Source of the DNA: Cohaesibacter gelatinilyticus
GTDB lineage: Bacteria > Pseudomonadota > Alphaproteobacteria > Rhizobiales > Cohaesibacteraceae
Direction: 5' to 3'
DNA length: 64,000 bases
Assembly (NCBI RefSeq): GCF_900215605.1
Contig: NZ_OBEL01000001.1
Location: 744,001 to 808,000, forward strand
The notes under the pieces are model-generated. The model saw only the letters and a list, made by a program, of their open reading frames with translations, searched no databases and was not told where the DNA came from. How positions within the stretch are numbered: position 1 is the first letter of the stretch; each line of letters starts with the position of its first letter. Of the stretch, positions 46,946 to 63,855 are shown in pieces. The translations under genes were made by a program, and so were the position numbers.

Positions 46946-47647
46946 ATGGTCCATACTTCCAACTTCTTACGTTCACTGTCGAAAAAATGGACGAGGCATG
47001 TTGTGCTGTCAGGTGTGGTGGCAAGCATGGTGTTGACCGGAATGCAACCGACCCAATCTGTATCTCCAGCAATGGCAGCCCCTCAGCTGATCCTGGGATC
47101 TGGCAATGTCGATAGCGACAAGCCACGCCGTCCATTCATGCTGGAAACCGGGATGGGGGAGACGTTCGGTGATCAGGATTTGTTGGGCAAGTTCACCCTG
47201 ATTTATTTCGGTTATACGTTCTGCCCTGATGTTTGCCCGACATCCATGATGACCATGACGGACATTCTCAATCAGTTAGGGGATGATGCCAAAGTCATCA
47301 CGCCCATCTTCATCTCTGTTGATCCAGATCGCGATACTCTGGCTATCTTGCGCGATTATGCGAATGCATTTCACCCAAAGATCATCGGTATGACCGGGCC
47401 AAAAGTAATGGTCGATGCTGCGGTCGATGCCTACAACGCCCGATACAAGTTCATTCCAAGCGAAGATGGAGATCCGATGGGGTATTCGGTCGACCATACG
47501 GCTTCCATCGCCTTTGTCGGTCCCAATGGTCGCATTGTGACCCGCTTCGGTCATGGTAAACCGCTTGATGAAATCCTCTTCGAGATCAAGGCAACGCTTT
47601 CCCAGCATCAGAAACTGGTCAAGATTTTAAAAGAAAAAGCCAAATAG
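46946..47647 (+). CDS. Sco1/SenC/PrrC family copper chaperone
   Basis: 233 residues from ATG 46946; a TTG at 46862 would add 28. An N-terminal anchor or signal segment (about 18-45) leads to a thioredoxin-like domain with the copper site: CPDVCP (Cys 93 and 97) and His 184 in SVDHTASIAFVG. Sco proteins deliver copper to, or reduce, CuA sites of cytochrome oxidase and of NosZ. The gene opens a plus-strand set Sco1 - pentapeptide protein - TlpA (34- and 33-base gaps) that converges on the nos genes, so service to NosZ CuA is the likely role. Confidence 0.9.
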   Translation: MVHTSNFLRSLSKKWTRHVVLSGVVASMVLTGMQPTQSVSPAMAAPQLILGSGNVDSDKPRRPFMLETGMGETFGDQDLLGKFTLIYFGYTFCPDVCPTSMMTMTDILNQLGDDAKVITPIFISVDPDRDTLAILRDYANAFHPKIIGMTGPKVMVDAAVDAYNARYKFIPSEDGDPMGYSVDHTASIAFVGPNGRIVTRFGHGKPLDEILFEIKATLSQHQKLVKILKEKAK

Positions 47648-47680
47648 TATGAAATTTGCGAGCCGGATCGAAGGACGGAT

Positions 47681-48433
47681 ATGATGGTTCAAACCAAACC
47701 AAATACAGGTTTCAAAGCCCTGATAGCCTGCGGTGCAATTATCATGACTTCTGCCTGTGCAAGTGCGGCAGATTGCGCGAATCCTGCACCCAATGACGAT
47801 TTGACGGTGTGCACAGAGTTGAAAGGCAAGGTCTTTTCCAATTGTGATCTGTCCGGCGCGAAATTTACTGGCATGGATTTACGCAATACGCGTTTTGAGA
47901 AATGCAAACTGGATGGGGCAGATTTCTCGGCGGCTACTCTGAAATGGGCATCCTTCAAGCATAGTTCGCTTGTTGGTGCCAATTTCACCAAAGCTGATCT
48001 GTTTCACACCAACATGAATGAAACGGATATTTCCAAAGGCATCTTCATCAAGGCATTCATGTTCGGCACCAATCTTAATTTTGCAAAGGCACGTGACGTA
48101 ACGTTTGATACGGCCAATATGAAAGACATCAATATGGAAGAGACTGATTTCTCGGGGTCGACTTTCAAAGATGCTTATATGCTGCGTGCAGTCTCTTATC
48201 AGGTCAATTTCACTGACGCGAAACTGGATGGGGCAGTACTGACAGGTGCTACCTTCGAGGAAGGCAATTTTACGCGCACCAGTATGGTCGGCGTCAATCT
48301 TGACGGAGCAAGTCTTGAAGGCTCCAGGTTTGACAAGGCAATTCTAAAGGGTGCAACATTTAAGAATGCTGTATTGGACGATGTTGTCTGGCAAGATGTC
48401 GTTGAGCCACCAGCACATCTCAAACTGCCTTAA
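47681..48433 (+). CDS. Exported pentapeptide-repeat protein of the nos island
   Basis: 250 residues. An N-terminal signal segment ends TSACASAAD, either a signal peptidase I site or a lipoprotein Cys near 26. From about residue 45 to 240 the chain is A(D/N)LxX pentapeptide repeats, e.g. CDLSGAKFTGMDLRNTRF and LDGADFSAATLKWASF, which form a right-handed quadrilateral beta helix. The mature protein starts with extra Cys (ADCANP, TVCTELKG, SNCDLSG, EKCKLDG). Most pentapeptide proteins have unknown roles. Its place between Sco1 and TlpA, tightly spaced, suggests a scaffold or copper/thiol role in NosZ maturation; that is inference. Confidence 0.88.
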   Translation: MMVQTKPNTGFKALIACGAIIMTSACASAADCANPAPNDDLTVCTELKGKVFSNCDLSGAKFTGMDLRNTRFEKCKLDGADFSAATLKWASFKHSSLVGANFTKADLFHTNMNETDISKGIFIKAFMFGTNLNFAKARDVTFDTANMKDINMEETDFSGSTFKDAYMLRAVSYQVNFTDAKLDGAVLTGATFEEGNFTRTSMVGVNLDGASLEGSRFDKAILKGATFKNAVLDDVVWQDVVEPPAHLKLP

Positions 48434-48466
48434 ATTGTCCGGCAATACTTATTGATAGGATCCAAT

Positions 48467-49051
48467 ATGAGAGAGATAATCACCACTCGTCGTCAAACCC
48501 TGGCCGGGCTATTGGCATCCTGTGCAGGATTGGCCATCGGCTTTGGGCCACAAGAGGCACAAGCATCCAGCATCATCAGTCCGTTGAAAAAAATGATCGA
48601 AGGGTCGACCGCCTATCAGAGCGATAAGGTGATTGAACTGATCAACGAGAAGGGCGAGGAAAGCACACTGGATAGCTATCAGGGGCGCTTTGTGCTCGTT
48701 AATGTCTGGGCCACATGGTGTTTCTCTTGCCGTCAGGAAATGCCGGATCTGGACGCCTTGCAAGGCAAGTTCGACCCAGAAAAGCTACTTGTCATGCCAA
48801 TTTCAGTGGATCGCAAAGGTATCGATGCTGTCATGCCATTCTATGATCGCACCAATATCAAACATCTGCCAATTTTTCTTGGTTCAGGCATGCAGGCCAT
48901 AACCACATTTGGTGAGCGCGGTATTCCGTTTTCCATTTTGCTGGATCCTGAAGGCAAAGAGTTTGGTCGTATCCTGGGGCCGGTCAAATGGGACGCCGAG
49001 GATTTTATCGCCTATCTGCAGGATAAAATAGATCATTGGAAGCCTGCTTGA
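48467..49051 (+). CDS. TlpA-family thiol-disulfide oxidoreductase
   Basis: 194 residues from ATG 48467 (AGGA at 48457-48460). The N-terminus (TTRRQTLAGLLASCAG) looks like a twin-arginine or Sec signal. A thioredoxin fold follows with VNVWATWCFSCRQEMPDL, active Cys 85 and 88, and the cis-Pro in RGIPFSILLDPEG. TlpA proteins reduce the cysteines of Sco and CuA sites so that copper can be loaded. As the third gene after Sco1 and the pentapeptide protein it probably acts on NosZ CuA. A terminator follows. Confidence 0.9.
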   Translation: MREIITTRRQTLAGLLASCAGLAIGFGPQEAQASSIISPLKKMIEGSTAYQSDKVIELINEKGEESTLDSYQGRFVLVNVWATWCFSCRQEMPDLDALQGKFDPEKLLVMPISVDRKGIDAVMPFYDRTNIKHLPIFLGSGMQAITTFGERGIPFSILLDPEGKEFGRILGPVKWDAEDFIAYLQDKIDHWKPA

Positions 49052-49079
49052 AAAAGACCTTTTAGCTATATCAGACGAA

Positions 49080-49103
49080 AAAAGGCTCGTTGTGAGCCTT
49101 TTT
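49080..49103 (+). terminator. Terminator of the Sco1-pentapeptide-TlpA unit
   Basis: AAAAGGCTC, loop GTTGT, GAGCCTTTTT, 28 bases after the tlpA-like stop. It is canonical. Confidence 0.88.
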
Positions 49104-49128
49104 AATGCTTGAGTGATTGACTTATAGG

Positions 49129-49234
49129 CTAGAGCCTATTCCCGAAAAGTGTGTGCGGTTTTCGGACAAGAATATGCTCGGAAATAATAGCTTGGGCATT
49201 TTGAATGACCGGGTATTCATTCAAAATGCTCTAG
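49129..49234. repeat. Dispersed intergenic repeat, copy R3, with terminal inverted repeats
   Basis: 106 bases bounded by CTAGAGC and GCTCTAG. Inside are CCGAAAA/TTTTCGG (49142-49165) and ATTTTGAATGA/TCATTCAAAAT hairpins (49197-49226). TTCGGACAAGAAT is shared with R1. The right end (CTAG) supplies the TAG stop codon of nosY (49233-49231). Confidence 0.8.
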
Positions 49235-50073
49235 ACGAGATCTCCCGATCGCATGCGCCAGAAGCCAAGAGCAGCAAAGATCAGGCCCAAGGCGCTTGGG
49301 TAGGCCAGTGCCCAGAAAACATAGCCTTGTGATCCGAAATTGTCCAAAATCAGGAAGGCTGCAGGGCCAAGCAGAACCAGCTGTGGGTCAAAAAGGATCA
49401 TGGCGGCCGTACGGAAGGTTTGCAATGGATTGGCAAGTGCAATCGCAAGCACGAAGTCCGGATCAAAATTTTCTCGGATCAAAACACCAATCAAGATCAG
49501 ATCAAGGAATGCGACCAGCAAGAGCCAGGTGAGTAGCGACAGGCCAAGTGCAAATTCTGTGCTCTTGGCGATAGAAGAGAGGAAGAAGGCAAAGCCAAGA
49601 AAGCAAAGAGAGAGTGAGACTACCAAGCCGCTATAATAAGCAATCTCCATATAGGGTAAGGCATGGCCTTTGATCAGACTGAAACCAGCAGCGATGACCA
49701 GAGCGATACCAATTGGCACCACCACCACGAACAAGCGGCCCAGCAACTTGCCCCAATACCAGTCGGATAGTTTGATCGGGAAGGAAAGGAGATATTCCAG
49801 CGTACCAGCCTCACGATCTCCCACCAGAGAACGCACGGTGGTAACCAGAACGAACAAAGGCAAAATGGCCATGGTGAGCTGAATGAAAGTCACCAGCAGG
49901 CGTGACAAGCCGGTAAAGCCCAGAACACGTGATTCGGTGATGCCCATGGAGATGAGAAGGACCATCAGGCCGGTAAAGACCAACGAGTAGATATGGAACC
50001 AGCGCGAGCGCATGGCTTCTTTCAAATCCAGACCAGCACTGAGCATCAAGCCGGAACGAGCTTTGGCAGACAT
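49231..50073 (-). CDS. nosY: NosY, ABC transporter permease for NosZ maturation
   Basis: 280 residues with six membrane helices (about 28-48, 58-80, 103-127, 143-165, 173-197, 250-270) and an ABC-2-type fold. The loop VRSLVGDREAGTLEYLLSFP near 84 is typical of NosY. With NosF it forms the NosFY transporter, which passes a sulfur or copper-linked factor via NosD for CuZ assembly. It is the last gene of the minus-strand nos set, 18 bases after nosL. Its stop codon is the edge of repeat R3, so the extreme C-terminus may have been reset by the repeat insertion. Confidence 0.9.
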   Translation of the reverse strand: MSAKARSGLMLSAGLDLKEAMRSRWFHIYSLVFTGLMVLLISMGITESRVLGFTGLSRLLVTFIQLTMAILPLFVLVTTVRSLVGDREAGTLEYLLSFPIKLSDWYWGKLLGRLFVVVVPIGIALVIAAGFSLIKGHALPYMEIAYYSGLVVSLSLCFLGFAFFLSSIAKSTEFALGLSLLTWLLLVAFLDLILIGVLIRENFDPDFVLAIALANPLQTFRTAAMILFDPQLVLLGPAAFLILDNFGSQGYVFWALAYPSALGLIFAALGFWRMRSGDLV

Positions 50074-50091
50074 AGTGTCGTCCTTTTGTTT

Positions 50092-50565
50092 TTATTCTTC
50101 TTCGATGTCTTCGAGTGGGATTTCACAACGCGCTGACAGACCTTGAGCCAAAATGAGTTTCTTCATCTTGGCAAAGCCAAAGGCGCCATCGCGATTATCC
50201 TTGATAGCCGCGATGCCGTAATCCATTGGGGTGAGGGCTCCAGCGACATAATAGGATTTCTTGGCATCCAGCCAGTCTTTGGCTGTTTCGCTGTTCATCA
50301 CCCAGATTTCTGTCTCTGGCTCATCTTTCCAGCTTCGGGTCTCCAGCCAATGTATGGCGTCACCAATGTCATCAAACTTGTAGAGCTTGCGTTTTGGTCC
50401 ACCGCGTACTTCGGTCGCATACATGGGATCAGAAATAATCATGCGGCAAATCTCGCACATATCCCGACCATATTTGATGGGTTCCGGACCGGTAGTCTGT
50501 TTCTGACACGCCGATAGGCCCAATGAGACGGCGACGGTCAAACCAATGAGGATGGAACGGATCAT
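50092..50565 (-). CDS. nosL: NosL, copper-binding lipoprotein
   Basis: 157 residues from ATG 50565 (GGAG seven bases upstream). The signal peptide ends in a lipobox LGLSAC, lipid-bearing Cys at 20. The mature N-terminus has the Cu(I) site region MCEICRMIISDPMYATEVRGG (Cys 37 and 40, Met 42), shown here in two parts by position. NosL donates Cu(I) for CuZ assembly through the NosDFY complex. An acidic C-terminus ends EDIEEE. It lies between nosF and nosY. Confidence 0.92.
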   Translation of the reverse strand: MIRSILIGLTVAVSLGLSACQKQTTGPEPIKYGRDMCEICRMIISDPMYATEVRGGPKRKLYKFDDIGDAIHWLETRSWKDEPETEIWVMNSETAKDWLDAKKSYYVAGALTPMDYGIAAIKDNRDGAFGFAKMKKLILAQGLSARCEIPLEDIEEE

Positions 50566-50654
50566 GCCCCCACTCCTGTCAAAATCAACTGGTGTAAGCC
50601 TAAGGGTTTTTGCGCAATGCAAACTTGCCCTTGGTCAAACGTGACCATGAAAGA

Positions 50655-51524
50655 TTAGTCTTCGCCCAGGTTTTCAAAACTGATGTCCGAAAGCAGACCA
50701 CCATAACGAGAGAGGGTGGACAGAAAGCGGATCATATCTCCCCCTGCTACCTGGCCGCTAGCACTCAAGCCATTGCTGGCAATGGAAAAATCCCATTCGG
50801 ACAAGGTCTTGGACAGGGCCTCGCTTGGCACCGCCAGTTTCAGCGTGCAAAGACGGCGATCTCCTTCTTTCAAACGGTCGGAGATACGATCATCCAGCAC
50901 GATCTTGCCCTGGTCCATCTCGATGACTCGATTGACCAAGGACGCAATCTCTTCCAGTCGATGACTGGCGATCAGCATCGCGCGGTCCTTGTGTTGGGCA
51001 AGAAGGTCGAGAAATGCAGAGCGGGCGGCGGGGTCGAGGTTTGCAGAAGGTTCGTCGAAAATGAACAATTTCGCCGGGCGAGCCAATGCAATGGAAATCA
51101 GTAATTTTTGTTTCTGACCGCCTGAAAGTCTGTTGAACGGAATAGACATCAGGATCGCCAGTTCCAATCCCAGCTTGTCGGCAATGTCCCAGATCTTGTC
51201 TTTGTCCGCCTTGCCAGAGGCGCAGGAGAATTTGATCAGATCAGCAACAGGCATCTTCAGAGGAGGAGGAAGCTGGGGCACAAAGGCGATGGCTTCCAGC
51301 ATGGAGCGGTTATGGGTGGAAACCTTCTCTCCTGCCAAAAGGATATCTCCCTTATGGCGATAGTGGCCAAGCAGACAGCGGATAAGGGTTGTCTTGCCTG
51401 CACCATTCGAGCCAATTAGTGCAATGCGATCATCTGATGCGATATCCACATCAAGCGACTGCAGCACAGGACGGCGAACAAAGGTTTTTTCCAACGCGCT
51501 TATTTGGATAAGTGGACCGGTCAT
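50655..51524 (-). CDS. nosF: NosF, ABC transporter ATPase
   Basis: 289 residues from ATG 51524, chosen for AAGG eight bases upstream; the longer frame adds nine residues. Walker A is GSNGAGKTTL (about 38-47), followed by the Q-loop, signature LSGGQKQKLLISIA, Walker B LFIFDEPSANLD and the H-loop in LIASHRLEE. The C-terminal 70 residues are a NosF-type extension. It powers the NosFY transporter. It is 89 bases upstream of nosL and 63 downstream of nosH. Confidence 0.92.
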   Translation of the reverse strand: MTGPLIQISALEKTFVRRPVLQSLDVDIASDDRIALIGSNGAGKTTLIRCLLGHYRHKGDILLAGEKVSTHNRSMLEAIAFVPQLPPPLKMPVADLIKFSCASGKADKDKIWDIADKLGLELAILMSIPFNRLSGGQKQKLLISIALARPAKLFIFDEPSANLDPAARSAFLDLLAQHKDRAMLIASHRLEEIASLVNRVIEMDQGKIVLDDRISDRLKEGDRRLCTLKLAVPSEALSKTLSEWDFSIASNGLSASGQVAGGDMIRFLSTLSRYGGLLSDISFENLGED

Positions 51525-51587
51525 TGGGTTACCTTTTAAGTTAGTGGGCATCTTCGGCCAGCCAAAGCTCGCCGAAGTGTTCAGTGA

Positions 51588-52565
51588 TCAGAGCAGGGAG
51601 TCGGAGCCACGAATGTGGAACTTCAACGCCCCTGTCGGACAGGCATCAAGGCACATACCGCAACGCGTGCAGTCAGCGCCCATATAGTGGAATTCCTGAT
51701 CGGCAAAACCGAGCTTGGTAGGTTCCAGAACATGCGGCACCATGCAGACATCGCGGCATTCGCCTTCATGCAAACATTTGGTGGAATCATATTTGATCTG
51801 AACCGGCGAGAGAGCTCCGGCAAAGCCATAGGTCAGGCCAATCGGACAGACATATCGGCACCAGAAACGGCGAGAATAAAAAATCTCTATCAGCAGCAAA
51901 ATACCCACAATGACAAGGGCAAAGCTTGCTCCATAGGTGAAGGCACGGGACAGAATGCCAACTGGAGATATATATTCAAACACCGTGTAGCCAGTGACAA
52001 AGGCCAATATGGCAAAGATGAAATACAACACCGTACGCATACGGCGGTCAAACGTGTGATCCTTGACCAGACCTTTCGCGGCAAGCTTCATATGTATCAT
52101 CTCTGCAATCTCAGCCAGCAGATGATAAGGGCAGGCCCAGGCGCAGAAGGTACGCCCCCCAAGCAGCCACCAACCAAATAGAACAGTTGCCGTACCAATC
52201 AGCAAATTGACGACGATATGCTTGTAAGCCAGCATCACTTGCAAAGCAGAGTTCAGGTCCGCCATATGGAAGCCGACAACGCGAGAGCCGGTAAGAGCTC
52301 CTTCAATCAGTTGAATATCGAGCCAGAAAGACAAAACGAACAACAGATTGACGATGATGACCGAGGCCCAGCGACGTTTCAGCCATTTGGTGCCTGGTTT
52401 GAACCAGACTTTCTCTTCCTTGATCAGGCGAATGCGTTCTTGCACTGCTTCCTTGGTTTTCTTGCCTTTGAAAATCTCAAGAGCTTTGGGTGAAAATTGA
52501 TCACGGGCAGGCCTCGCTGCGTCTTTGCCAAGCATCAAGAGAATGGAATGGACAATCTTGCTCAT
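51588..52565 (-). CDS. nosH: NosH, membrane quinol dehydrogenase subunit (NapH-like ferredoxin)
   Basis: 325 residues. Four or five membrane helices carry the two CXXXCP motifs on the cytoplasmic side of the NapH/NosH/NosR family: TFCAWACPYHLL (near 135) and FWCRYVCPIGL (near 235). Two [4Fe-4S] clusters follow: KCLHEGECRDVCMVP and CTRCGMCLDACPTG. With NosG it oxidises menaquinol and passes electrons to periplasmic cytochromes in clade II N2O reducers. It overlaps nosG by four bases. This pair replaces NosR, which is absent. Confidence 0.88.
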   Translation of the reverse strand: MSKIVHSILLMLGKDAARPARDQFSPKALEIFKGKKTKEAVQERIRLIKEEKVWFKPGTKWLKRRWASVIIVNLLFVLSFWLDIQLIEGALTGSRVVGFHMADLNSALQVMLAYKHIVVNLLIGTATVLFGWWLLGGRTFCAWACPYHLLAEIAEMIHMKLAAKGLVKDHTFDRRMRTVLYFIFAILAFVTGYTVFEYISPVGILSRAFTYGASFALVIVGILLLIEIFYSRRFWCRYVCPIGLTYGFAGALSPVQIKYDSTKCLHEGECRDVCMVPHVLEPTKLGFADQEFHYMGADCTRCGMCLDACPTGALKFHIRGSDSLL

Positions 52566-53413
52566 GCTGCCGTCTCCATTGATACTTCGGGTTCAATGAT
52601 GATCACTGCCGGTTCGACCGGGCACATCATTTCGCAAGTGCCACAGCCCACACAGCTTTTATGAATGATTGGTTCGCGACGCTTGTCCCCTGGATCACTG
52701 GAGATAGGTTCGAGTGAAATTGCCCCTTCAATCGGGCATTCCCGAACGCAGAGATCGCAAAGCTCCAGATCATAGTCATGATCCGCGATCTTGATGGGCG
52801 TCCAACGATCAATTTCCTCGTAACGTAGCAGGCCTTCAAAATCAGGACCGCGCGCAGTACCACTGAAACCAAGCCCTTGCATGGCAAGGCAATTTTCAGG
52901 CTCCACCAGCTTGGCAAAGCCCATCGTGACTTCTTCTTTCTTGGTAATGACATGGTCCAATGCGCCAGTCGGGCAGGCCAGAATGCACTGGGTAGCGTCA
53001 CAGGAGAAATCACAGGCCTGAGTACGGGCATCAATATAGGGCACTCCAATGCCCATACCCTCATCGACATCAGCGAGTTTGATGGCCTCTACCGGACAGA
53101 CCTGCACACATTGGCCGCATTTGATGCAAGCTGCCAGAAAGGCATCTTCATCAATGGCACCAGGTGGACGCAAACGCTCTTTCAAGCGTTTGAGAACAGG
53201 ATAAACACCGCTCAAGGCTGCTGCCAGAATGACAGAGCCAAAGCCGATGGAGCGCAGGAACCGACGGCGTGCTTCCCTCTGCCGTTCGGACATCTTGCGC
53301 TTCTTGGGAGGCGTAGCCTTTGCGGGAGCTGCGCTATTATCGGATGGTGGGTCCATATCTGCGTTCGCCGGGGGAGGCGATGCATTGTTAGTCTTTGACT
53401 GGTCGGATGTCAT
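52562..53413 (-). CDS. nosG: NosG, periplasmic polyferredoxin (NapG-like)
   Basis: 283 residues. A Pro/Ala-rich N-terminus precedes RREARRRFLRSIGFGSVILAAALSG-like sequence (REARRRFLRSIG near 48), a twin-arginine or anchor signal. Four [4Fe-4S] motifs follow: CIKCGQCVQVCP, CDFSCDATQCILACP, CDLCVRECP and CVGCGTCEMMCP. NosG accepts electrons from NosH and hands them to cytochrome c. Four-base overlaps with both nosD and nosH show tight coupling. The proline-rich extension of about 40 residues is unusual. Confidence 0.88.
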   Translation of the reverse strand: MTSDQSKTNNASPPPANADMDPPSDNSAAPAKATPPKKRKMSERQREARRRFLRSIGFGSVILAAALSGVYPVLKRLKERLRPPGAIDEDAFLAACIKCGQCVQVCPVEAIKLADVDEGMGIGVPYIDARTQACDFSCDATQCILACPTGALDHVITKKEEVTMGFAKLVEPENCLAMQGLGFSGTARGPDFEGLLRYEEIDRWTPIKIADHDYDLELCDLCVRECPIEGAISLEPISSDPGDKRREPIIHKSCVGCGTCEMMCPVEPAVIIIEPEVSMETAA

Positions 53414-54840
53414 TGACTTTGCCTCGCTTTTAGCAGGAGTTGCAGGGCAGTTGAGGGAGGAGAGTGAACAACCTTTGGCGCCGGTCCCGCCTCAGCTCGT
53501 TTGGTCTCTGCCTCATTCTCAAAATCCCCTTCCGGTTCTGGATGGATGGTATTGGTCTTCAATTCCACCGGGTCCAGACCGGCAATCCGCTCCATCATGG
53601 GCTGTTGGTCGCGGATAAGATGTTTTGGTTCGGAGAAAGGAGCCAGTCTTTCAATGAAGTCGAGTGCTTCCAGGCCAGGGGAGCCGCGGAAGAAGGAGAT
53701 GGGCATGATGTCCATCCAAAGACGGTCGGCATAACTCCAGAGATCAAAGGGGGATTCGCCTTTTCCATCTTTGTTTTTGTCGAAACCTTCATAGGAATCC
53801 CAATGATTGCTATCCCAAAGGTGTCGCCTGGCGGAGCCACCACCGCGCACAACGATTTGGGTGAAATTGGAAGCAAAGTCATTATGGACGATGCGATTGC
53901 CTTTCCAATCACTGTGGAATTGTACGCCGATACCATTGAAGGAGATATTGTTGTCCGAGATCAGGTTCTCGCTATCAGGCTGATAAGGAGAGACATCAAG
54001 ATACAGTCCTACGGAATTGCCCAGCACATCATTTCCCGCAATGATGACATCTGAGGTTTCCTTGAAGCCAATACCCATTCCGGATGAGCCGGAGCTCTCA
54101 ATAATCTTGTTGTTGAGCACTTTGATACCGTCGGAATACATCAGAAAGATGCCAACGGTATTGTTGCGAATGTCATTCTTCTCGACCAGGTTATACTGGC
54201 TGTACATGAAGTGAATGCCATATCGACCGCGTCGGATCTTGTTGCCTGCAATACGGTTATTCTTGGAATACCAGACCACCACATCACGACTGTCGGTGAT
54301 AATGTTGTTCAGGATCTTGTTCTCGGTCGAATACCAAAGGCGGATTGCGTCGCCTCGCAAGGGTAGATCGACATCACGGCTGTTGATCTTGTTGTTTTTG
54401 ACGATGTTGTTGTTGGATTGCTGGATATCAAAACCGAACAATACATTTTCCATCGTCAGGTTTTTGAGAATATTGAAATCGCCGCGTACCTGAATTCCGC
54501 TATCCAACTCATTATGTAGCCGGCCGGAATTACGTAGGATCATGTCCTGAACTGTCGCTCCAGTGGTCTTGACCAGAAGGACTGTTCCTTTGCCCTCAGC
54601 ATCCAGTATCACACCATTGGAACCATCAAAGGTAATGGCGTTCGTGATGGTAAAATTACCTTTATAGATGCCAGCAGGCGGGATGATGGTCTCACCTGGC
54701 TTTGCTGCATCAATGGTAGCCTGCAGATCATATGATGCAGATGCTGTGGTGGACGCCGAAGACAGGGCTATCCATAGGCAAAACAGGGACATGATTTTGG
54801 CAAGATTATGCATTTTCTGGACCGTTTTTCGCACACTCAT
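53410..54840 (-). CDS. nosD: NosD, periplasmic beta-helix protein for CuZ assembly
   Basis: 476 residues. A signal segment (about 10-34) precedes parallel beta-helix repeats of the CASH/NosD family between about 60 and 350, with many N-x-I/V-x-x-N turns such as NNNIVKNNKINSRD and NDIRNNTVGIFLMYSDG. NosD bridges NosL and NosFY in CuZ maturation. The C-terminal 100 residues are low-complexity. ATG 54840 or 54813 may be the start; neither has a clear ribosome-binding site. A strong bidirectional terminator (54901-54933) separates it from nosB, so it may be read from its own promoter or by read-through. Confidence 0.92.
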   Translation of the reverse strand: MSVRKTVQKMHNLAKIMSLFCLWIALSSASTTASASYDLQATIDAAKPGETIIPPAGIYKGNFTITNAITFDGSNGVILDAEGKGTVLLVKTTGATVQDMILRNSGRLHNELDSGIQVRGDFNILKNLTMENVLFGFDIQQSNNNIVKNNKINSRDVDLPLRGDAIRLWYSTENKILNNIITDSRDVVVWYSKNNRIAGNKIRRGRYGIHFMYSQYNLVEKNDIRNNTVGIFLMYSDGIKVLNNKIIESSGSSGMGIGFKETSDVIIAGNDVLGNSVGLYLDVSPYQPDSENLISDNNISFNGIGVQFHSDWKGNRIVHNDFASNFTQIVVRGGGSARRHLWDSNHWDSYEGFDKNKDGKGESPFDLWSYADRLWMDIMPISFFRGSPGLEALDFIERLAPFSEPKHLIRDQQPMMERIAGLDPVELKTNTIHPEPEGDFENEAETKRAEAGPAPKVVHSPPSTALQLLLKARQSQ

Positions 54841-56218: not shown

Positions 56219-56304
56219 GGGGTGAACGCCTTGTCGTTGGAAGATGCCCCATGGGTCTATGCGTAGAACAAACAAGCCCAGGCAGCTTCACTGTGAACCG
56301 GGGA

Positions 56305-56384: not shown

Positions 56385-57092
56385 TTACCAGTCAAAATCT
56401 GGGTTCACCCAGTCAGGATCGGCCAGTTTTTCTTTTGGTGGCGTCAGACGGGATACGTAATCCATCACGGCAACCATATCCTTGTCGGAGAAGCCTTCGA
56501 TCTGCTTGACCATGTCAGGGTTGGCGTTACGGCGCTTGCCATCACGGATCCACTCGAACTGACGCAGCAAATAATTGTAATGCTGGCCTTGAATCAGAGG
56601 GTAGAATTTATCTGGCTTGCCTTCGCCACGCTCGCCATGACAACGAACACAATTGTCTTTGTAGAGTTTTTCGCCCAACTCCAGATCTTTGCCTGGTCCT
56701 TTGCCGTTATTCGGGTTCATCGGCAGTTTTTCGATATAGGCAGCAACGTCTGCCAGAGCCTGTGCACCACCGATTTCACGAGGCAGAGCAAAAGGATACA
56801 TGGTTGGGTTGTCACGGTTCTTGGCACGAATATCAGCAAGCTGCTTGATGGTTACAACTGCATGCTGACCAGCCAATTGAGGGAAAGTACCGTCTTCCAG
56901 ACCCCAACCATTGAGCTGGTGACAGGCAGAGCAAACTTCGTAAGTCTCAATGCCACCTTCATGATTAGGTTTGAGGTGCAGGGCTTCGTCCTGCTCTTCG
57001 TTGCCCTCGTTCCAGCCACCTGCGGCATAAGCAGCACCGGACAGCATGAGAGCTGTGCAACCAACTGCTAGAAATTTCATATACATTTTCAT
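56385..57092 (-). CDS. Diheme periplasmic cytochrome c (nos cluster)
   Basis: 235 residues from ATG 57092 (GGAG six bases upstream). A signal peptide ends AAYAAGG. Two class I haem domains follow: CSACH near residue 54 and CVRCH near 144, with distal Met candidates in NPTMYPFA and NPDMVKQ. The architecture resembles cytochrome c4. In clade II clusters two such cytochromes sit beside nosZ and carry electrons from NosGH to CuA. Maturation would need the Ccm system at 10-14 kb. Confidence 0.9.
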   Translation of the reverse strand: MKMYMKFLAVGCTALMLSGAAYAAGGWNEGNEEQDEALHLKPNHEGGIETYEVCSACHQLNGWGLEDGTFPQLAGQHAVVTIKQLADIRAKNRDNPTMYPFALPREIGGAQALADVAAYIEKLPMNPNNGKGPGKDLELGEKLYKDNCVRCHGERGEGKPDKFYPLIQGQHYNYLLRQFEWIRDGKRRNANPDMVKQIEGFSDKDMVAVMDYVSRLTPPKEKLADPDWVNPDFDW

Positions 57093-57124
57093 AATTGACT
57101 CCAATAGTCAGGTCCGTGGATCAG

Positions 57125-57156: not shown

Positions 57157-57166
57157 TTGAATTCTT

Positions 57167-57898
57167 CTATTTCTTCTTCTTTGCTTTACGCTCGACCGTG
57201 GACAGATAGTCGGCGATCGCTACGATCTGTTCATCCTTGGCGCGTTTGATTACGCCATACATCAGCTTGGATTTGCCATTCACACGCACTTTTTCACGCA
57301 TGTCGGTCATCTGATTGATCAAATAGGCTTTCTTCTGGCCAGCAATGATTGGATAAGCTTTGTTTGAGGCTTTGGTGCCGTCCTTGCTATGGCAGGCTTT
57401 GCAACCGAGCTTTTTGTAAGCTTTCTTGCCCGCGGCAATTTGCTCTTCAGAGACAGGCTCTTCTGGTGGGCGCAGTTTCGCAGGAGGTAACTCGCTCAGC
57501 CATGCTGCCAGATCCTTGATCTCATCCTTGTTCACCAGATGCATGATGTCCGCCATACCTTTGGTACGCGGATGACCAGTCTCTTCCTCGACACTGGCAA
57601 CACGCTTGCCAGACTGGATGTCCAGCATTTGCTGTGTCAGATATTTGGCATTCTGGCCTGCGAGGTTTGGATAATCGCGAATTGCTTTGGCCCCATTGCG
57701 GCCATGACAGGCCATGCAGGATTTGGTCCGGTAAATTCTGGAGCGTGGGTCGCGCTTTCTCTTCTTCTTTTTTTCGACTTTTTTCTCGGCCGTCGCAGCC
57801 TGTGCATTTGTCTCGGTTGTCGAGACAGGCATGGCGATTACAGCTGCAAGGGCAGCTACGCTCAAACCTTTCAACAAAGTAGGAATAAAAGTTCGCAT
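57167..57898 (-). CDS. Diheme periplasmic cytochrome c, Lys-rich (nos cluster)
   Basis: 243 residues. A signal peptide of about 34 residues is followed by a strongly basic segment (KKVEKKKKRKRDPRSR) before the first haem site CMACH near residue 62; the second, CKACH, is near 167. The C-terminus is also basic (ERKAKKKK). Distal Met candidates are in KGMADIM and SKLMYG. It is a c4-like electron carrier of the N2O reductase chain. The unusual charge may favour docking to an acidic partner or membrane. It lies 254 bases after nosZ, with a hairpin between. Confidence 0.9.
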   Translation of the reverse strand: MRTFIPTLLKGLSVAALAAVIAMPVSTTETNAQAATAEKKVEKKKKRKRDPRSRIYRTKSCMACHGRNGAKAIRDYPNLAGQNAKYLTQQMLDIQSGKRVASVEEETGHPRTKGMADIMHLVNKDEIKDLAAWLSELPPAKLRPPEEPVSEEQIAAGKKAYKKLGCKACHSKDGTKASNKAYPIIAGQKKAYLINQMTDMREKVRVNGKSKLMYGVIKRAKDEQIVAIADYLSTVERKAKKKK

Positions 57899-58124: not shown

Positions 58125-58152
58125 TCCAAGTTTGTCAGATTTGAAGTTCAGC

Positions 58153-60444
58153 TTACTTCTTCACGACAGCGCCGTGCTCTTCCAGATAGGTTTTGGCTCG
58201 CAGACCAATGTCAGCGGCTTTAACCTGGAACTGCCACCACTGGTTCGCCCAAAGCATGGCGTTGTTCCAGTCTTCCTTGGCAGCTGCTTCTTCAGCCTTT
58301 TTCTTCACTTCCTCGATGCGGCCGAGCTGATCAGTCGCGTCTTCAACCAGTGCTACGACATTGTCGAAGTCTTTGAAGTTGGTGGACACGATGTAAGCGA
58401 CAACAGAGTCGATGACTTGCTGAGTCTGCAAGTTGGTCTTGTACTGCTTGTCATAGTCAGCTTTGGTGTAGGTGGTACCAACACTCACTTCGCCAGAACC
58501 AGCTTTGGTGCCTTTCGGACGGACAATCAGGTAACCCTGCATTTCCAGATGAAGGGCAGAGCAGAACTCGGTGCAGAAGTATGGGAAGACGCCTGCACGG
58601 TCAGCCGTAAAGGTCGCAGAAGCAGTTTTGCCTGGTTCCAGTGACAGGTTGACGTTGTAGGTGTCCACTGCGAAGCCGTGGGTTTCATCCTCTGCACGTT
58701 CAGCATTGGTGAAGTGGAAGGAGACAACATCACCCTGTTCAACTTCAACAATCTCTGGTGTGAGGTGTGAACGAATGGCGGTGCCGTAGATGTCAACACG
58801 ACCATCGGTGCGAACAATCTTCTCACGACCTGGACGTACAGCTGCTTCATGACGTTTGCCGGTACGGCTGTTTGTGCCATATTTGTAGCGAACAAGCGGC
58901 TTCAGTTTGTCAGCGGAGATAGCGACCACATAGTGAGGCTCACCAAGTGGAATTGGCATATCATAGAGCAATTCCATCTTGCTATTGCCGATATCAATCA
59001 GCTGGTGGTTCTGCGGATGCAGAGGACCAACTGGGTTGAAGCGGTCAATTGCAAGCTTGTTCAGGGCAACCAGATATTTGCCTTTAGGAGCAACGGTGTC
59101 GCCTTCCATGGTCATCAAGTGACCAATGTTGTAGTGAACGGAAACTTTGTCGAGGATCTTGCCTTCACAATAATTGTATTTGGCAACCTGACTGTCCACA
59201 TACAACGAGGTGTAGGCGATACATGGAGTGCTGTCGAATTGGGTATGGAGAGGTCCAAGGCCCAGATCGATTTGCTTGTGAATCACAGATTCAAGATCAA
59301 GAATTGGAATGCCGTATGGGTCTTCGCCAGCATATTTCTTGTCTTTGATAGCCTGCTGCAGTTTCTCGAAGGAGTAAACGGTGACCTGGGTGTCCAGTTT
59401 ACCGGATACGATGAGGAACTTACCGTCTGGAGTAACGTCCACACCGTGTGGAGACTTCACTTCAGGAGCCAGGAACAGAACGCCCTCAGCAACAGCAACA
59501 TCCATGGTCAGAACCTGATGACCATTGATTTCCTTGCCTTTGCCTGCAGCAATCAGCTCAGCAGCTTTCTTCCAGTTCACGATATGCAGGAAGTCGGTGT
59601 CGTTTGCAGAACAGCCAGCTTCGAATGGAGGGCGACCGGACTCGATGCCGCCAACATAACGCTCGGAACAGAATGAGTTGGTGAAGGACCAACCGTCGGA
59701 TACCAGTTTACCAGCATCGGACAAATCCTGAGAATATGGAGGCATTTCGACGGTGAAGGATTTGGACGGATCAATGCGGCCAGCTTCACGGTCAAATTTC
59801 CAGTAGGTCACACCACCGCGGTATTTCTCGTTGAACTCGGACAGTGGAGCATATTCGCCACCCAGAGGCGCAGCATATTGTGCGGCTTCCAGAACATAAT
59901 CGGTGTTTGGCGTAACAAATGCACCACCATGCTCAGATTGGAAAACCGGATTGGCAACAATCTGCTGGGTTTCGAAGTCATGCAGATTGATGACTGCGAT
60001 ACGAGGGTTGGCCTTATCGTTGATGAAGAGCCATTCACCGTCATATTCACCATTGGTCTCGGAGATTGCAGGGTGGTGAGTATCACCCCAGGTCAACACG
60101 TTGCCCTTAGGAGAACCTTCTTCAAGGATTTTTTTGGATTCGTCATCAAAGCCGAAGCCCTGCCATGGTTCCGGTGTAAAGGCGGAAACATATTTCAGGA
60201 TGCGCATGGACGGGATGCCGTAAACGATGACCTGGCCAGACTGACCACCGGAGGAGAAGGCAACAAATTCGTCGCGACCGCCGGTCGGGGTGTAGGTCTT
60301 GGCTGCGGCCAACAAGTCTTTCTGGGAAAGACCACGCCGCTTCATGACATCGTCCAGGGATTCAGCGGAATAAGCAGCTCCAGCAGCGCCAAAACCGATA
60401 ATGGCAGCTGTGGAAGCGCCCAAGATACGCTTCAGAGATTTCAT
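58153..60444 (-). CDS. nosZ: Nitrous oxide reductase NosZ, clade II (Sec-type)
   Basis: 763 residues. It reduces N2O to N2 in the periplasm. The N-terminus MKSLKRILGASTAAIIGFG is a Sec-type signal without the twin arginines of clade I. The beta-propeller carries CuZ His candidates in WGDTHHPAISE, EHGGAFV, SPHGVDV, GPLHTQFDS, NIGHLMTMEG and GEPHYVV. The cupredoxin domain has the CuA set CTEFCSALHLEM at about 624-635. A tail of about 107 residues after CuA is helical and Glu/Lys/Ala-rich with no CXXCH, unlike Wolinella NosZ, which has a haem domain there. It heads the minus-strand nos cluster. Confidence 0.95.
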   Translation of the reverse strand: MKSLKRILGASTAAIIGFGAAGAAYSAESLDDVMKRRGLSQKDLLAAAKTYTPTGGRDEFVAFSSGGQSGQVIVYGIPSMRILKYVSAFTPEPWQGFGFDDESKKILEEGSPKGNVLTWGDTHHPAISETNGEYDGEWLFINDKANPRIAVINLHDFETQQIVANPVFQSEHGGAFVTPNTDYVLEAAQYAAPLGGEYAPLSEFNEKYRGGVTYWKFDREAGRIDPSKSFTVEMPPYSQDLSDAGKLVSDGWSFTNSFCSERYVGGIESGRPPFEAGCSANDTDFLHIVNWKKAAELIAAGKGKEINGHQVLTMDVAVAEGVLFLAPEVKSPHGVDVTPDGKFLIVSGKLDTQVTVYSFEKLQQAIKDKKYAGEDPYGIPILDLESVIHKQIDLGLGPLHTQFDSTPCIAYTSLYVDSQVAKYNYCEGKILDKVSVHYNIGHLMTMEGDTVAPKGKYLVALNKLAIDRFNPVGPLHPQNHQLIDIGNSKMELLYDMPIPLGEPHYVVAISADKLKPLVRYKYGTNSRTGKRHEAAVRPGREKIVRTDGRVDIYGTAIRSHLTPEIVEVEQGDVVSFHFTNAERAEDETHGFAVDTYNVNLSLEPGKTASATFTADRAGVFPYFCTEFCSALHLEMQGYLIVRPKGTKAGSGEVSVGTTYTKADYDKQYKTNLQTQQVIDSVVAYIVSTNFKDFDNVVALVEDATDQLGRIEEVKKKAEEAAAKEDWNNAMLWANQWWQFQVKAADIGLRAKTYLEEHGAVVKK

Positions 60445-60599
60445 TGTAAGTGCCCCTTACATTTGAGCGCGTTCAATCGGGTTTCAGAGCATGGAGAAAT
60501 CTGAGATTTGATCGAAACGCGAGAGAACATTACGTCCAACAAATTCGTAATGTGCGAAAACACGCGAGGACATATTGGTCGGGGCAGGGCATTTCCTAC

Positions 60600-60613
60600 T
60601 TGACGATCATCAA
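60600..60613. promoter_or_regulatory. FNR/FixK-type box in the nosZ upstream region
   Basis: TTGACGATCATCAA: one mismatch to TTGAT-N4-ATCAA, and compatible with the FixK/Dnr half-site TTGAC. It is 156 bases upstream of nosZ (minus) and 122 upstream of the DUF2946-like gene (plus), so it could control both. Confidence 0.6.
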
Positions 60614-60734
60614 GGAAGAAAAAGTTTTGGATCGTCATGCTTGAGCCATCTTGTCACAGGTCTCAATCCGTTCTAGCTTAGCTGGGCGGCATAAGATAGT
60701 TTGGCCAAAATAAAGAGCGAGATCGATTTTTTAA

Positions 60735-61166
60735 ATGTTTGATTTAAAAAAGACATTTAAGATGATGCATTTCTCACTCTCTCTAAAAAAGGGAGATGGG
60801 CTGCATGCATTTGCGCTCGCTTTGGTCCTATTCGCACTCACCTTGCGGGCCGCGCTGCCTCTTGGCTTGGCCGTTACCGTAAATGAGGACGGAATTCCCC
60901 TGGTTATTTGCCAACAGGTGGCGACCGTCGCCAATTTGATGGCCGATGAAGATGGGGAAGAGCAGCCAGTCAATACGGCGTATAAATGCCCATATTGCAT
61001 GGTTCTGAGCGCTGATGGCGCACCCTTGGCTAATCTTCTCGAGACCCCTGCAACTCCGGACTGGGTTGCGTTCTTGACGCTGAAACCTCTCAAACGAGAG
61101 CGGATTGTTCATGCAGCTCCAACACTGTCTGACAATCTCGGCAGAGACCCACCAAAATACGCTTGA
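60735..61166 (+). CDS. DUF2946-like small exported protein, divergent from nosZ
   Basis: 143 residues from ATG 60735, or 133-134 from ATG 60762/60765. A hydrophobic segment (about 24-48, ALALVLFALTLRAALPLGLAV) is followed by a short periplasmic domain with Cys in PLVICQQVA and the pair KCPYCMVL. This Cys layout resembles DUF2946 proteins, which often accompany copper genes. The first ATG lies in an inverted repeat (TTAAATGT/ACATTTAA, about 60730-60758). Together with the PCuAC gene it probably serves copper supply to NosZ; that is inferred from position. Confidence 0.65.
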   Translation: MFDLKKTFKMMHFSLSLKKGDGLHAFALALVLFALTLRAALPLGLAVTVNEDGIPLVICQQVATVANLMADEDGEEQPVNTAYKCPYCMVLSADGAPLANLLETPATPDWVAFLTLKPLKRERIVHAAPTLSDNLGRDPPKYA

Positions 61167-61397
61167 TCTCTTGATGATGTGCGTACGCGCTCACCATTCA
61201 GTCTGGCTATTTGCGTCCTGCCCCTTCGCATTCACCCTTTCGAATTTGGTTTGTAGCTTGTTCGTGTAGCTTCAGTATTTCATGGAATTTGCAAAAATAT
61301 CTGTGAATGAATTCCTCTCAGAACAATGATGCGCCAGTTACGCCCAACTGAGGAGCGTATGCACGTGGTCTGAGTCGTGCCTTTTAAACCCATCACC

Positions 61398-61424
61398 GAG
61401 GGTTTGGCATGGTGCCAAATCCTC
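61398..61424. promoter_or_regulatory. Long perfect hairpin upstream of the PCuAC gene
   Basis: GAGG-G-TTTGGCA, loop TGG, TGCCAAA-T-CCTC. It lies 42 bases before the ATG at 61466, in a 299-base gap that otherwise shows nothing recognisable. It may be a terminator for the DUF2946-like gene or an operator or leader structure. Confidence 0.5.
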
Positions 61425-61465
61425 TCATTTCTCACGTTGATCCTTTTTAGAGACAGGAACTTCTT

Positions 61466-61993
61466 ATGAAAAAGACTCTTGCTGGTGCCCTTATTGCGTC
61501 TGTTATGGCACTCACCCCCGCTCTCGCTGATGTGATGTCTGGCGATCTGACCATTTCCGGTGCCTTTGCCCGTGCGTCTGCTGGTAAAGCTACCGCAGGC
61601 GGTGCCTTCATGATGATCAAGAACAAAGGTGACGCAGATCGTCTGGTGTCTGCCAGCTCCGATGTTGCCGAACGCACCGAGCTACATACGCACATCAAGG
61701 ATGGTGATGTGATGCGCATGCGTGAAGTAAAAGATGGTATTCCAGTGCCTGCCAAAGGCGAAGTCGCCCTGAAGCCAGGTGGATATCACGTGATGTTCAT
61801 GAAGCTTCACAAGCCATTGAAAGCCGGTGAAAAATTCCCTGTCGAGCTGACCTTTGAGAAGGGCGGCAAAGTGACCGTCGAGATCGAAGTTGGCAAGGTC
61901 GGTGCCATGAAGGCCATGGACCATTCAAAAATGGATCATTCCAAAATGAAACATGGTGATATGAAAAAAGGTGATATGAAAAAATCGAACTAA
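61466..61993 (+). CDS. PCu(A)C copper chaperone with Met/His-rich tail
   Basis: 175 residues. A signal peptide ends PALAD (residue 22). The cupredoxin-like PCuAC domain has the copper ligands in the order His 74, Met 85, His 108 and Met 110 (TELHTH, MRMRE, GGYHVMFM), close to the family pattern H-x10-M-x21-H-x-M. The last 25 residues repeat MDHSKMDHSKMKHGDMKKG, a flexible extra Cu-binding tail. PCuAC delivers Cu(I) to CuA sites together with Sco. Next to nosZ it most likely loads NosZ. A terminator follows at 62048. Confidence 0.92.
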   Translation: MKKTLAGALIASVMALTPALADVMSGDLTISGAFARASAGKATAGGAFMMIKNKGDADRLVSASSDVAERTELHTHIKDGDVMRMREVKDGIPVPAKGEVALKPGGYHVMFMKLHKPLKAGEKFPVELTFEKGGKVTVEIEVGKVGAMKAMDHSKMDHSKMKHGDMKKGDMKKSN

Positions 61994-62047
61994 CGCGACA
62001 CCCTCAAATTAGTCACGTTGGTAGAAGGTCGGTTTGCTCCCCGGCCC

Positions 62048-62080
62048 AATCCCTGCCAGGTTCAACTTGGCAGGGATTTT
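62048..62080 (+). terminator. Terminator between PCuAC and menA
   Basis: AATCCCTGCCA and TGGCAGGGATT form a perfect 11-bp stem followed by TT on the plus strand. The two genes converge here; the menA stop is at 62080. Confidence 0.85.
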
Positions 62081-62997
62081 CAGGTGCTGAATAGCCAAAT
62101 GCCGAATATTACGATCCACATAAGCTGAAACGCCGCTGTCTGGCTCAGAATTTTATTCAAGGATTGGGCATCCGCTGCGTGCCACAAGGAGCGAATGGGC
62201 AAGGTTAGAGCTATGACAAAGAGCAGCGCGGAAGCCGCTATTGCTGTGACTGATCCGTGTCCAAGATGGAGTGGGCCAAGTGAAGAAACGCTCATAAGGG
62301 CAGTGTAAAAGATCTTGGTGGCTTGAGGGCCAAGAAGGATGGCTAGCGTGCGACGACCGCCTTGTTCATCACCAATGCGATCTCTGTGATTGTTCACGAT
62401 CAATACGGCAGCGGCTGGCAAGCCAGCATAGAGCCCCGCCACCAGCGCCATTTGGGACCAGAAACCGGTCAGTAGATAATGACTGCCTGCGACCGCAAAT
62501 AGGCCAAAGAAGGCTAATACAAAAGCTTCTCCGAAAGGGGATGCTGCAATGGGATAGGGGCCACTGGAATAGGCCAAAGCGCAGATGATACCAGCCAGAC
62601 CAATGGCAAGAATGGGCCAACCGCCTGCAAAAACCAGAAACAGTCCGCATAGTGATGCAATTGCTAGAAATAAGAGCGCGGCGAGCCGAACTTGTTGCGC
62701 ACTTAATAATCCCATTGATGTCATGCGAGCTGGGCCAAGGCGCGTGGTTTGATCGTCCAGCCCACTATCGGAATCAGCTGCGTCATTCCATAGGTTGGTT
62801 GCGATCTGTATCGCCATTGCAGCAAGGGCTATAATGGGAAATAAATACCAGTAGGTGAGGGATCCCTCACGGCCGCCAATAAGAGCTGAGAGAATGACAG
62901 GGCCAAGGGACAGGAGTAGTGTTTTAGGTCGAATGGCAGCAAGCCAAATGCCAATCATGCCTGATGGCGCATTGTTTGGGGCTTGCTGTGGGGCCAT
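62080..62997 (-). CDS. menA: 1,4-dihydroxy-2-naphthoate polyprenyltransferase MenA
   Basis: 305 residues with about eight membrane helices. UbiA-superfamily motifs fit MenA: NLWNDAADSDSGLDD (about 68-82) as the first Asp-rich motif and NNHRDRIGDEQGGRRTLA (about 200-217) as the second. It attaches the polyprenyl chain to DHNA, the penultimate step of menaquinone synthesis. UbiA itself has a different first motif (NDxxDRxxD). The start ATG 62997 is followed at 60 bases by the menG-like gene, so the two form an operon. Menaquinone genes are uncommon in alphaproteobacteria. Confidence 0.88.
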   Translation of the reverse strand: MAPQQAPNNAPSGMIGIWLAAIRPKTLLLSLGPVILSALIGGREGSLTYWYLFPIIALAAMAIQIATNLWNDAADSDSGLDDQTTRLGPARMTSMGLLSAQQVRLAALLFLAIASLCGLFLVFAGGWPILAIGLAGIICALAYSSGPYPIAASPFGEAFVLAFFGLFAVAGSHYLLTGFWSQMALVAGLYAGLPAAAVLIVNNHRDRIGDEQGGRRTLAILLGPQATKIFYTALMSVSSLGPLHLGHGSVTAIAASALLFVIALTLPIRSLWHAADAQSLNKILSQTAAFQLMWIVIFGIWLFST

Positions 62998-63057
62998 GGA
63001 ATTCTCCTGATTGATCCATCAAACTTAATTTGAGCTGCTCGACTAGCATACGGATCT

Positions 63058-63855
63058 TTAAGCGTCCACTTTCTCGGCAATATGAATTGCGGCGATCCCG
63101 AATAGCACTTTCTCGGTATGAACGACCTCGAGACCGGAAATCTCAAGCGCTTCGCTGACCACCTCAATAGGCGGAAATCCTGCGATTGATTCAACCAGAT
63201 AGCGATAAGCACCGCGGTTGCCTGTCACCAATGCACCGATTGCCGGAATGACCAGCCTCGCATAGAAGCGATAAAAGGGAGCAAGCCAAGCGTCAGGCTG
63301 AGAGAATTCGAGAATATGCAGTCTTCCACCGGGCTTTAAAACACGAGCAATCTCGGTAAAAGCGAGACTCGGACGCGTGAAGTTTCGAAGGCCAAAGGAA
63401 AGGGTAGCACCTGAGACACTGCTAGCAGGAAGAGGCCAGTCCTCAGCTTGAGCCTCAACGTAGGAACATTTCTCTCCCAATCGCTCTTTGGCCACGGCCA
63501 GCATCTTGGACGAGGGATCTAGGACGCAAATTTCACGTCCGGGCAATTGTGTCAGTAGTAACTTGGCGATATCACCAGTACCACCAGCAACATCATAGAT
63601 GGGACCCTCGGGAAGATCTTTAACCCGCGAGACAAAACGTTGCTTCCAAAGCCGATGCATACCGCCGCTCATCAGATCATTCATAAGATCATAGCGAGAG
63701 GCGATGGATTGAAAGAGGGATCGAATATTGTTCTGCCGGGTTTCTGGCGTCACATTTTGTGTACCGAAGGCCGTGCTGAGCTCATCTAGAGTGCAAGGAA
63801 GAGGATTGGGCTCAGCCATATCGGGTGAGCCCTGGATCTGTGTGTCCTGGGACAT
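63058..63855 (-). CDS. menG: Demethylmenaquinone / ubiquinone methyltransferase UbiE/MenG
   Basis: 265 residues. A class I SAM methyltransferase: IASRYDLMNDLMSGGMHRLWK near residue 50 (family signature, read in parts), the SAM loop YDVAGGTGDIAKLLL near 88, acidic residue in CVLDPSSKML, and LSFGLRNFTRPSLAF and GGRLHILEFSQP. UbiE methylates both demethylmenaquinone and the ubiquinone precursor. Its operon with menA argues for a menaquinone role; hyphomicrobial ubiE normally lies elsewhere with ubiB. The N-terminus is about 25 residues longer than usual. Confidence 0.85.
   Translation of the reverse strand: MSQDTQIQGSPDMAEPNPLPCTLDELSTAFGTQNVTPETRQNNIRSLFQSIASRYDLMNDLMSGGMHRLWKQRFVSRVKDLPEGPIYDVAGGTGDIAKLLLTQLPGREICVLDPSSKMLAVAKERLGEKCSYVEAQAEDWPLPASSVSGATLSFGLRNFTRPSLAFTEIARVLKPGGRLHILEFSQPDAWLAPFYRFYARLVIPAIGALVTGNRGAYRYLVESIAGFPPIEVVSEALEISGLEVVHTEKVLFGIAAIHIAEKVDA

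Follow-up and report, generated by a model that had tools for sequence, protein, structure and literature searches.

The stretch analysed here, referred to as the window, covers 64,000 nucleotides of Cohaesibacter gelatinilyticus (RefSeq assembly GCF_900215605.1, contig NZ_OBEL01000001.1, positions 744,001 to 808,000; G000:C1:744001-808000 in our numbering), from a genome of 5.2 Mb with a completeness of 99.55%. It harbors a clade II, Sec-type nitrous oxide (N2O) reductase (nos) cluster, next to which lie menA (62080–62997, minus strand), encoding a member of the 1,4-dihydroxy-2-naphthoate (DHNA) prenyltransferase family (TIGR00751, 126.2 bits for a cut-off of 102, both Asp-rich motifs being conserved), and a paralogue of menG/ubiE (63058–63855, minus strand; TIGR01934, 231 bits, cut-off 158). 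At the other end of the cluster lies a gene for a transporter of the BASS, or sodium:bile-acid-symporter, family (45792–46688, minus strand; PF01758, 99.4 bits, cut-off 24.3), a candidate DHNA importer. The reading favored below, to which a probability of about 60% can be given, is that these genes form a DHNA-salvage unit (importer, prenyltransferase, methyltransferase) that would feed menaquinone to the quinol dehydrogenase NosGH, and perhaps to other respiration.

All nos genes are on the minus strand. NosZ (58153–60444; 882 bits against the Sec-type model TIGR04246, cut-off 625, versus 377 bits against the Tat-type model) is followed by two diheme cytochromes c (Cyt1, 57167–57898, and Cyt2, 56385–57104, each matching PF00034 (Cytochrom_C) and carrying two CxxCH motifs), a NosB-like membrane protein (54953–56275), NosD (53410–54840; TIGR04247, 361 bits, cut-off 300), the NapG-type ferredoxin NosG (52562–53413; TIGR00397, 138.5 bits, below the cut-off of 178.85, as for all MauM/NapG models matched), the NapH-type quinol dehydrogenase NosH (51588–52565; TIGR02163, 231.7 bits, cut-off 213), the ABC ATPase NosF (50655–51551; generic ABC ATPase models only, named by position), a NosL-like lipoprotein (50092–50622), and the ABC permease NosY (49231–50073; PF12679, 78 bits, and position). 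The NosL-like and NosB-like genes match no Pfam or NCBIfam model: the former is named from its position, its conservation in nos loci, and a lipobox and CEIC motif that we take to be those of NosL, the latter from its position and its conservation beside other clade II NosZ. The left flank consists of a SCO1/SenC copper chaperone (46862–47647, with an alternative start at 46946; PF02630, 140.1 bits), a pentapeptide-repeat protein (47681–48433; PF00805, 115.7 bits) and a TlpA/ResA-like thioredoxin (48452–49051; NF047696, 103.5 bits, below the cut-off of 230), and the right flank of a DUF2946 protein (60735–61166; PF11162, 28.7 bits, cut-off 23.7) and a PCu(A)C copper chaperone (61466–61993; PF04314, 138.9 bits), all on the plus strand, after which come menA and ubiE/menG. 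The original prediction, made from the letters of the window, had described this island without the BASS gene; each gene that it named was located, with identical or nearly identical coordinates, and its statement that nosR and nosX are missing holds among the island genes, to which the search was confined and where neither scores over cut-off. With a Sec-type NosZ over cut-off, NosG, NosH and NosD in the cluster, and no nosR or nosX in it, the presence of a clade II nos cluster together with menA and a menG/ubiE paralogue in this Cohaesibacter genome is confirmed.

Two paths to menaquinone are known: the Men route, which yields DHNA, the substrate prenylated by MenA, and the futalosine route. 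The island had been proposed to be a self-sufficient menaquinone module, but profile searches of the host genome gave best scores of 143.6 bits for menB (cut-off 342.7), 68.4 bits for menD (cut-off 244.2), and 24.1 bits, from a partial match, for MqnA/MqnD (PF02621, cut-off 26), so that the absence of other menaquinone genes, which the original prediction itself had named as evidence against its proposal, is what was found for the genes searched. By these searches, the genome holds neither a complete Men pathway nor a futalosine pathway, and no known route to DHNA; self-contained menaquinone synthesis is therefore rejected for this genome. What is present is a partial pathway of the DHNA-salvage type, with menA and menG but without menB, menD and MqnA/D over cut-off (menC, menE, menF and menH were not searched). 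The island menA and ubiE are thus orphans as far as searched, and because the precursor route is missing, the interpretation shifts from a cluster carrying its own synthesis to one carrying salvage. The host genome has three UbiA-family genes and two UbiE genes matching the whole profile; the second UbiE gene (G000:C3:331417) is followed by a gene that looks by eye like ubiB, and it presumably encodes the host ubiquinone enzyme. The island MenG/UbiE paralogue has a 38% match in the host UbiE region.

Is this combination particular to one strain? The order sample comprised 150 genomes, including that of C. gelatinilyticus, 19 of which had a match (one of them weak) to the window MenA. Among 22 genomes examined, menB and menD were over cut-off in the same five, clade II NosZ in 12, and MqnA/D in none; menA-ubiE was found within 12 kb of nos, as in the window, in G300, G302, G310, G315, G336, G372, G382 and G422, and none of these eight has menD over cut-off. 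A scan of named genomes returned at least 80 matches to MenA, and among the 80 matches listed, 36 have nos genes in their flanks (by our own reading of them), spanning Cohaesibacter, Rhodobacterales, other Hyphomicrobiales, Magnetospirillum, Magnetovibrio, Rhodocyclales, Sedimenticola and others. These 36 loci represent 35 named genomes, with menD over cut-off in six and under cut-off, at 161.8 bits, in one more (50 of the 80 listed loci having been searched); many named genomes are metagenome-assembled genomes (MAGs), whose completeness was not given with the menD search.

After removal of duplicates (L121, L122, L123, L126, L172 and L193 being dropped as copies of order-sample genomes, and L181 and L196, from one genome, being counted as two loci), 95 loci were retained: 48 menD-lacking, 29 menD-bearing and 18 not tested for menD. 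The menD-bearing state was assigned to 17 loci by the menD model over cut-off, to L133 by a partial match of 238.2 bits for a cut-off of 244.2, and to 11 by an in-locus MenD tblastn match above 200 bits, their genomes not being searched; L132 (161.8 bits) and G315 (menB-like, 316.5 bits, under cut-off, and no menD) were scored as menD-lacking. Defining nos linkage as a nos match of more than 42% identity within 12 kb of menA, 36/48 menD-lacking loci are nos-linked versus 6/29 menD-bearing ones, and ubiE lies at most 3 kb from menA in 34 of these 36 versus one of these six.

A different type of locus is represented by Sedimenticola (L146), in which the nos genes are followed on the same strand by menF, menD, menB and menA (menD, menB and menA pass their own models, and menF an isochorismate synthase model). 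Loci L137, L138 and L162 have a similar menF-D-B-A/nos layout, by similarity, and L188, G640 and G715 show other arrangements of nos with menF/D/B. G715 also encodes clade II NosZ twice in tandem, the two genes scoring equally and starting about 4.7 kb apart (L198/L204, G715:C1:804307-810813). In a sample of 398 Pseudomonadota genomes, clade II NosZ is over cut-off in eight, four of which (G000, G310, G640 and G715) have men genes near nos. A link between menaquinone genes and clade II nos thus recurs in Alpha-, Beta- and Gammaproteobacteria, beyond what chance would give. The view that they belong to the clade II nos module was therefore right as to linkage, but the island alone brings no usable pathway. 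As a separate observation, two other alphaproteobacterial genomes (L078 and L079, from G035 and G143, one of about 0.9 Mb) have a MenA over cut-off with menB, menD and MqnA/D not over cut-off, and no BASS gene in the flanks seen.

The BASS gene emerged from a clustering of the reading frames around menA loci. Its product belongs to the BASS family, scoring above the PF01758 gathering threshold and displaying the stretches E-x-G-x-Q-N and G-G-x-T-S-N, with an E value of 5e-20 against BASS transporters of the PDB; it stays below the cut-off of the subfamily model TIGR00841 (144 bits, cut-off 326). With equal first flanks, a BASS gene was found in 28/48 menD-lacking loci, 2/29 menD-bearing loci, and 0/18 loci not tested for menD; in 19 of these 28 it comes right after menA on the same strand, the matched stretches being 15 to 167 bp apart. 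When flanks were extended for eight menD-lacking loci, the window added, and seven cut-off loci left unscored (L117, L118, L119, L128, L156, L186 and L189), the count became 36/42 menD-lacking loci, with L077 scored as devoid of BASS though its contig stops a short way past the cluster. In three Rhodobacterales and some Hyphomicrobiales, the BASS gene lies across the nos cluster from menA, the arrangement also found in the window. Besides being linked to orphan menA, the menA-linked BASS have a place of their own in the phylogeny: together with those of two Rhodobium-type genomes, they fall on one side of a branch, opposite 10 other, plasmid-derived BASS (SH-aLRT (Shimodaira–Hasegawa-like approximate likelihood ratio test) support of 92). 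Moreover, MenA and BASS distances are correlated (r = 0.86, 37 pairs), and 0/1000 permutations gave a value as high.

Plasmid-borne copies of the island were also considered and rejected, as the 22 plasmid records with a MenA-like match show at most 37% identity; only one was inspected further, the Priestia filamentosa plasmid NZ_CP015326.1 (L258/L259, the ends of the record), where menA lies about 1 kb from a divergent BASS frame, a menA-BASS neighborhood in Bacillota. This frame has 338 residues without stop, runs across the start of the record, and is missing from the gene table.

Relatives of the host show that the salvage genes and nos can be separated. Four Cohaesibacter that lack nos at this position (G370, G404, G434 and L120) retain the order BASS – PCuAC – menA within 3 kb, while in the window the nos block sits between BASS and PCuAC; the salvage pair can therefore stand without nos. 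One of these genomes, G370, has a NosZ match elsewhere, of 464 bits, under the clade II cut-off. That the island was acquired as a module, as originally suggested, is not borne out as far as recent acquisition is concerned, given this shared order and a flat G+C (0.49 to 0.52), by which no signal of recent foreign origin was detected. The neighborhood extends past position 64000, beyond the original list of genes: from position 63910 of the window onward (L005, 1910–19203), the minus strand carries genes for a protein with DM9 repeats, a second Sco and a CbiX-like protein, then genes of the heme d1/nir group (NirJ at 612 bits, and a protein with a cytochrome-d1 domain at 340 bits), followed on the plus strand by nnrS and norCBQDE (these names, as that of the second Sco, being given by inspection). 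The nos, men and nir/nor genes make up a single denitrification region. A scan for sites of the FNR/NNR type (TTGAT-N4-ATCAA, one mismatch allowed) gave no signal, with seven in the window versus 4.74 expected, and one in L005 versus 1.45 expected.

Which substrate does an orphan MenA use? The MenA proteins of menD-bearing and menD-lacking genomes are intermixed on the tree, on which the menD state changes at least six times; 37 alignment columns are more than 97% conserved in both groups, and no column separates, by the criterion of our script, the 29 menD-bearing from the 49 menD-lacking proteins. Judging from these sequences, the orphan MenA probably still uses DHNA. Were MenA and UbiE instead to make a different prenylated ring, and hence a new quinone, from another aromatic acid, the retention of a dedicated methyltransferase paralogue besides the host UbiE, and the ubiE adjacency typical of menD-lacking loci, would be accounted for, but the intermixed phylogeny and the catalytic motifs common to both groups, without any separating column, make this unlikely.

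Comparable doubt applies to a third, unrecognized pathway that would make DHNA or another naphthoate in the cell, MenA and UbiE finishing an endogenous menaquinone, and BASS serving another function. Conservation of the orphan pair over deep divergence is what such a pathway would predict, and four species are reported in which menaquinone was measured although their genomes lacked a pathway (PMC13386864). However, the families recurring beside orphan nos-menA loci (judged by eye, most rows being nos genes or opposite-strand frames) yielded a transporter and no recognized candidate biosynthetic enzyme, and Pseudomonadota show only the Men route, the futalosine route being absent from the Pseudomonadota genomes surveyed (PMC11707229); this explanation is accordingly held to be improbable.

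Selection on menA bears on whether the pair could be the decaying remnant of a lost menFDBA-nos locus, with nos running on ubiquinol. Several of the synonymous rates (dS) computed are saturated, and the values for the gene labelled NirN_cyt were set aside as a reading-frame artefact. In one close pair of loci (L117/L118), to which this comparison is confined, the ratio of non-synonymous to synonymous rates (dN/dS) is 0.353 for MenA, 0.349 for DUF2946, 0.148 for UbiE, and 0.02 to 0.12 for nos genes, pointing to purifying selection on menA that is weaker than on its neighbors. The window MenA is also unusually fast for an island gene, with 58–62% identity to its counterparts in Cohaesibacter relatives whose NosZ is 96–97% identical. 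Both features would fit decay, but a dN/dS well below 1, open frames, catalytic columns kept across many families, and the maintenance of the unit in genomes that lack nos at this position render a remnant very unlikely. Finally, a chance neighborhood of ordinary genes, as the clade II clusters without men genes nearby might suggest, is scarcely credible when the same pair is met again close to nos, variously arranged, in Alpha- and Betaproteobacteria, as is menA in Gammaproteobacteria, and when half of the clade II genomes of the small phylum sample (4/8) have men genes near nos.

Several observations nevertheless weigh against DHNA salvage as the preferred explanation. The contrast in BASS frequency between menD-lacking and menD-bearing loci has a Fisher value of 1.4e-11, but its rows are kin: it is clustered on the tree, and amounts to six independent pairs on the best tree and one on well-supported branches, for which a sign test is not significant. 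The 36/42 count uses longer flanks for eight menD-lacking loci than for menD-bearing ones, and six scored menD-lacking loci have no BASS gene. Conversely, two menD-bearing Rhodobium-type genomes have, 5.7 kb away from menA, a BASS gene whose product falls in the same clade, plus ubiE beside nosZ. The absence of BASS from 10 nos regions of genomes with men genes (0/10, and 0/5 for other nos regions) has to be read with the fact that several of the ten cover one side of the cluster only. The BASS-menA unit is not strictly tied to N2O, as seen in Cohaesibacter, and the other four of the eight clade II genomes in the phylum sample, three of them from one genus, lack men genes in the stretches retrieved around nos. 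Part of the menD absences may reflect gaps, since many genomes are MAGs, and completeness is 84% for G336 and 86% for G349; the genome of C. gelatinilyticus is not such a case. In the close pair compared above, the dN/dS of MenA is the highest. The substrates of MenA, UbiE and BASS are predicted ones, the organic anions transported across the BASS family are varied, and NosGH-type dehydrogenases may accept ubiquinol, as is the case for NapGH. Lastly, prenylation-gene mutants of Lactiplantibacillus plantarum still used exogenous quinone (PMC10746273).

Under the salvage explanation, DHNA or a close naphthoate released by neighbors would be imported by the BASS transporter, and prenylated by MenA into demethylmenaquinone, a step for which family, motifs and phylogeny are established and the substrate is presumed. 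The UbiE/MenG paralogue, assigned by family, would then methylate demethylmenaquinone into menaquinone, and, by analogy with Wolinella succinogenes, NosGH would oxidize menaquinol, with electrons reaching NosZ via the diheme cytochromes. The host would rely on its own UbiE for ubiquinone and on outside DHNA for its menaquinone branch. Wolinella is a menaquinone host, in which clade II N2O respiration reportedly depends on NosG-C1-C2-H, NosB and a bc complex (Hein et al. are said to have described this in 2017). Its cluster is likewise said to combine a Sec-type NosZ with NosG, NosH, NosB, NosD and two c-type cytochromes, whereas in Cohaesibacter the cytochromes are diheme and adjoin NosZ, and menA-ubiE is added. 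The loci of Sedimenticola (L146), Chromatiaceae CTD079 (L138) and Rhodocyclaceae SKW243 (L188) share the linkage of clade II nos with menA, but also hold menF, menD and menB, without BASS in the stretches seen; the gammaproteobacterial menFDBA-nos loci would represent the self-sufficient version of the same coupling between nos and menaquinone.

Salvage by menA and menG alone is known in lactobacilli. Out of eight genes, L. plantarum has these two only, and Lactococcus lactis mutants regain menaquinone when given copies of both (PMC8303990); its iron reduction requires exogenous DHNA (PMC8837199), and the conversion of DHNA into menaquinone requires menA and ubiE (PMC5738691). As would be the case in Cohaesibacter, the last two steps only are encoded, and DHNA comes from outside; the Cohaesibacter case differs in concerning proteobacteria with a ubiquinone background, and in being linked with both clade II nos and a BASS gene. 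Transporters for these compounds were stated in 2017 as not described (PMC5738691), and uptake pathways in 2023 as yet to be identified (PMC10746273). In the open PubMed Central literature searched, no paper was found that connects men genes to nos clusters or identifies a BASS protein as DHNA importer, and neither a candidate importer nor a tie of salvage to N2O respiration was encountered. It can tentatively be proposed, at somewhat less than even odds, that an importer-MenA-MenG salvage operon extends across Alpha- and Betaproteobacteria, that its BASS protein is the first identified dedicated DHNA importer as far as the literature was searched, and that many ubiquinone-based N2O reducers of clade II are conditional auxotrophs for a vitamin K precursor, their N2O consumption depending on cross-feeding.

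Why would ubiquinone bacteria attach menaquinone to N2O respiration? One idea is the use of a quinone whose synthesis needs no oxygen, because an oxygen-independent ubiquinone route was reported in 17% of the alphaproteobacterial genomes surveyed (PMC11707229), and the comparison of menFDBA-nos with BASS-menA-ubiE-nos loci makes the question testable. The linked BASS gene is a concrete candidate for the DHNA transporter missing from the literature. Microbes bearing NosZ have been called the only known biological sink of N2O (PMC11906303), and if part of the clade II N2O reducers indeed need a precursor made by their neighbors, a compound that is neither supplied nor measured could be limiting their activity, whether in pure culture, in bioreactors or in sediments.

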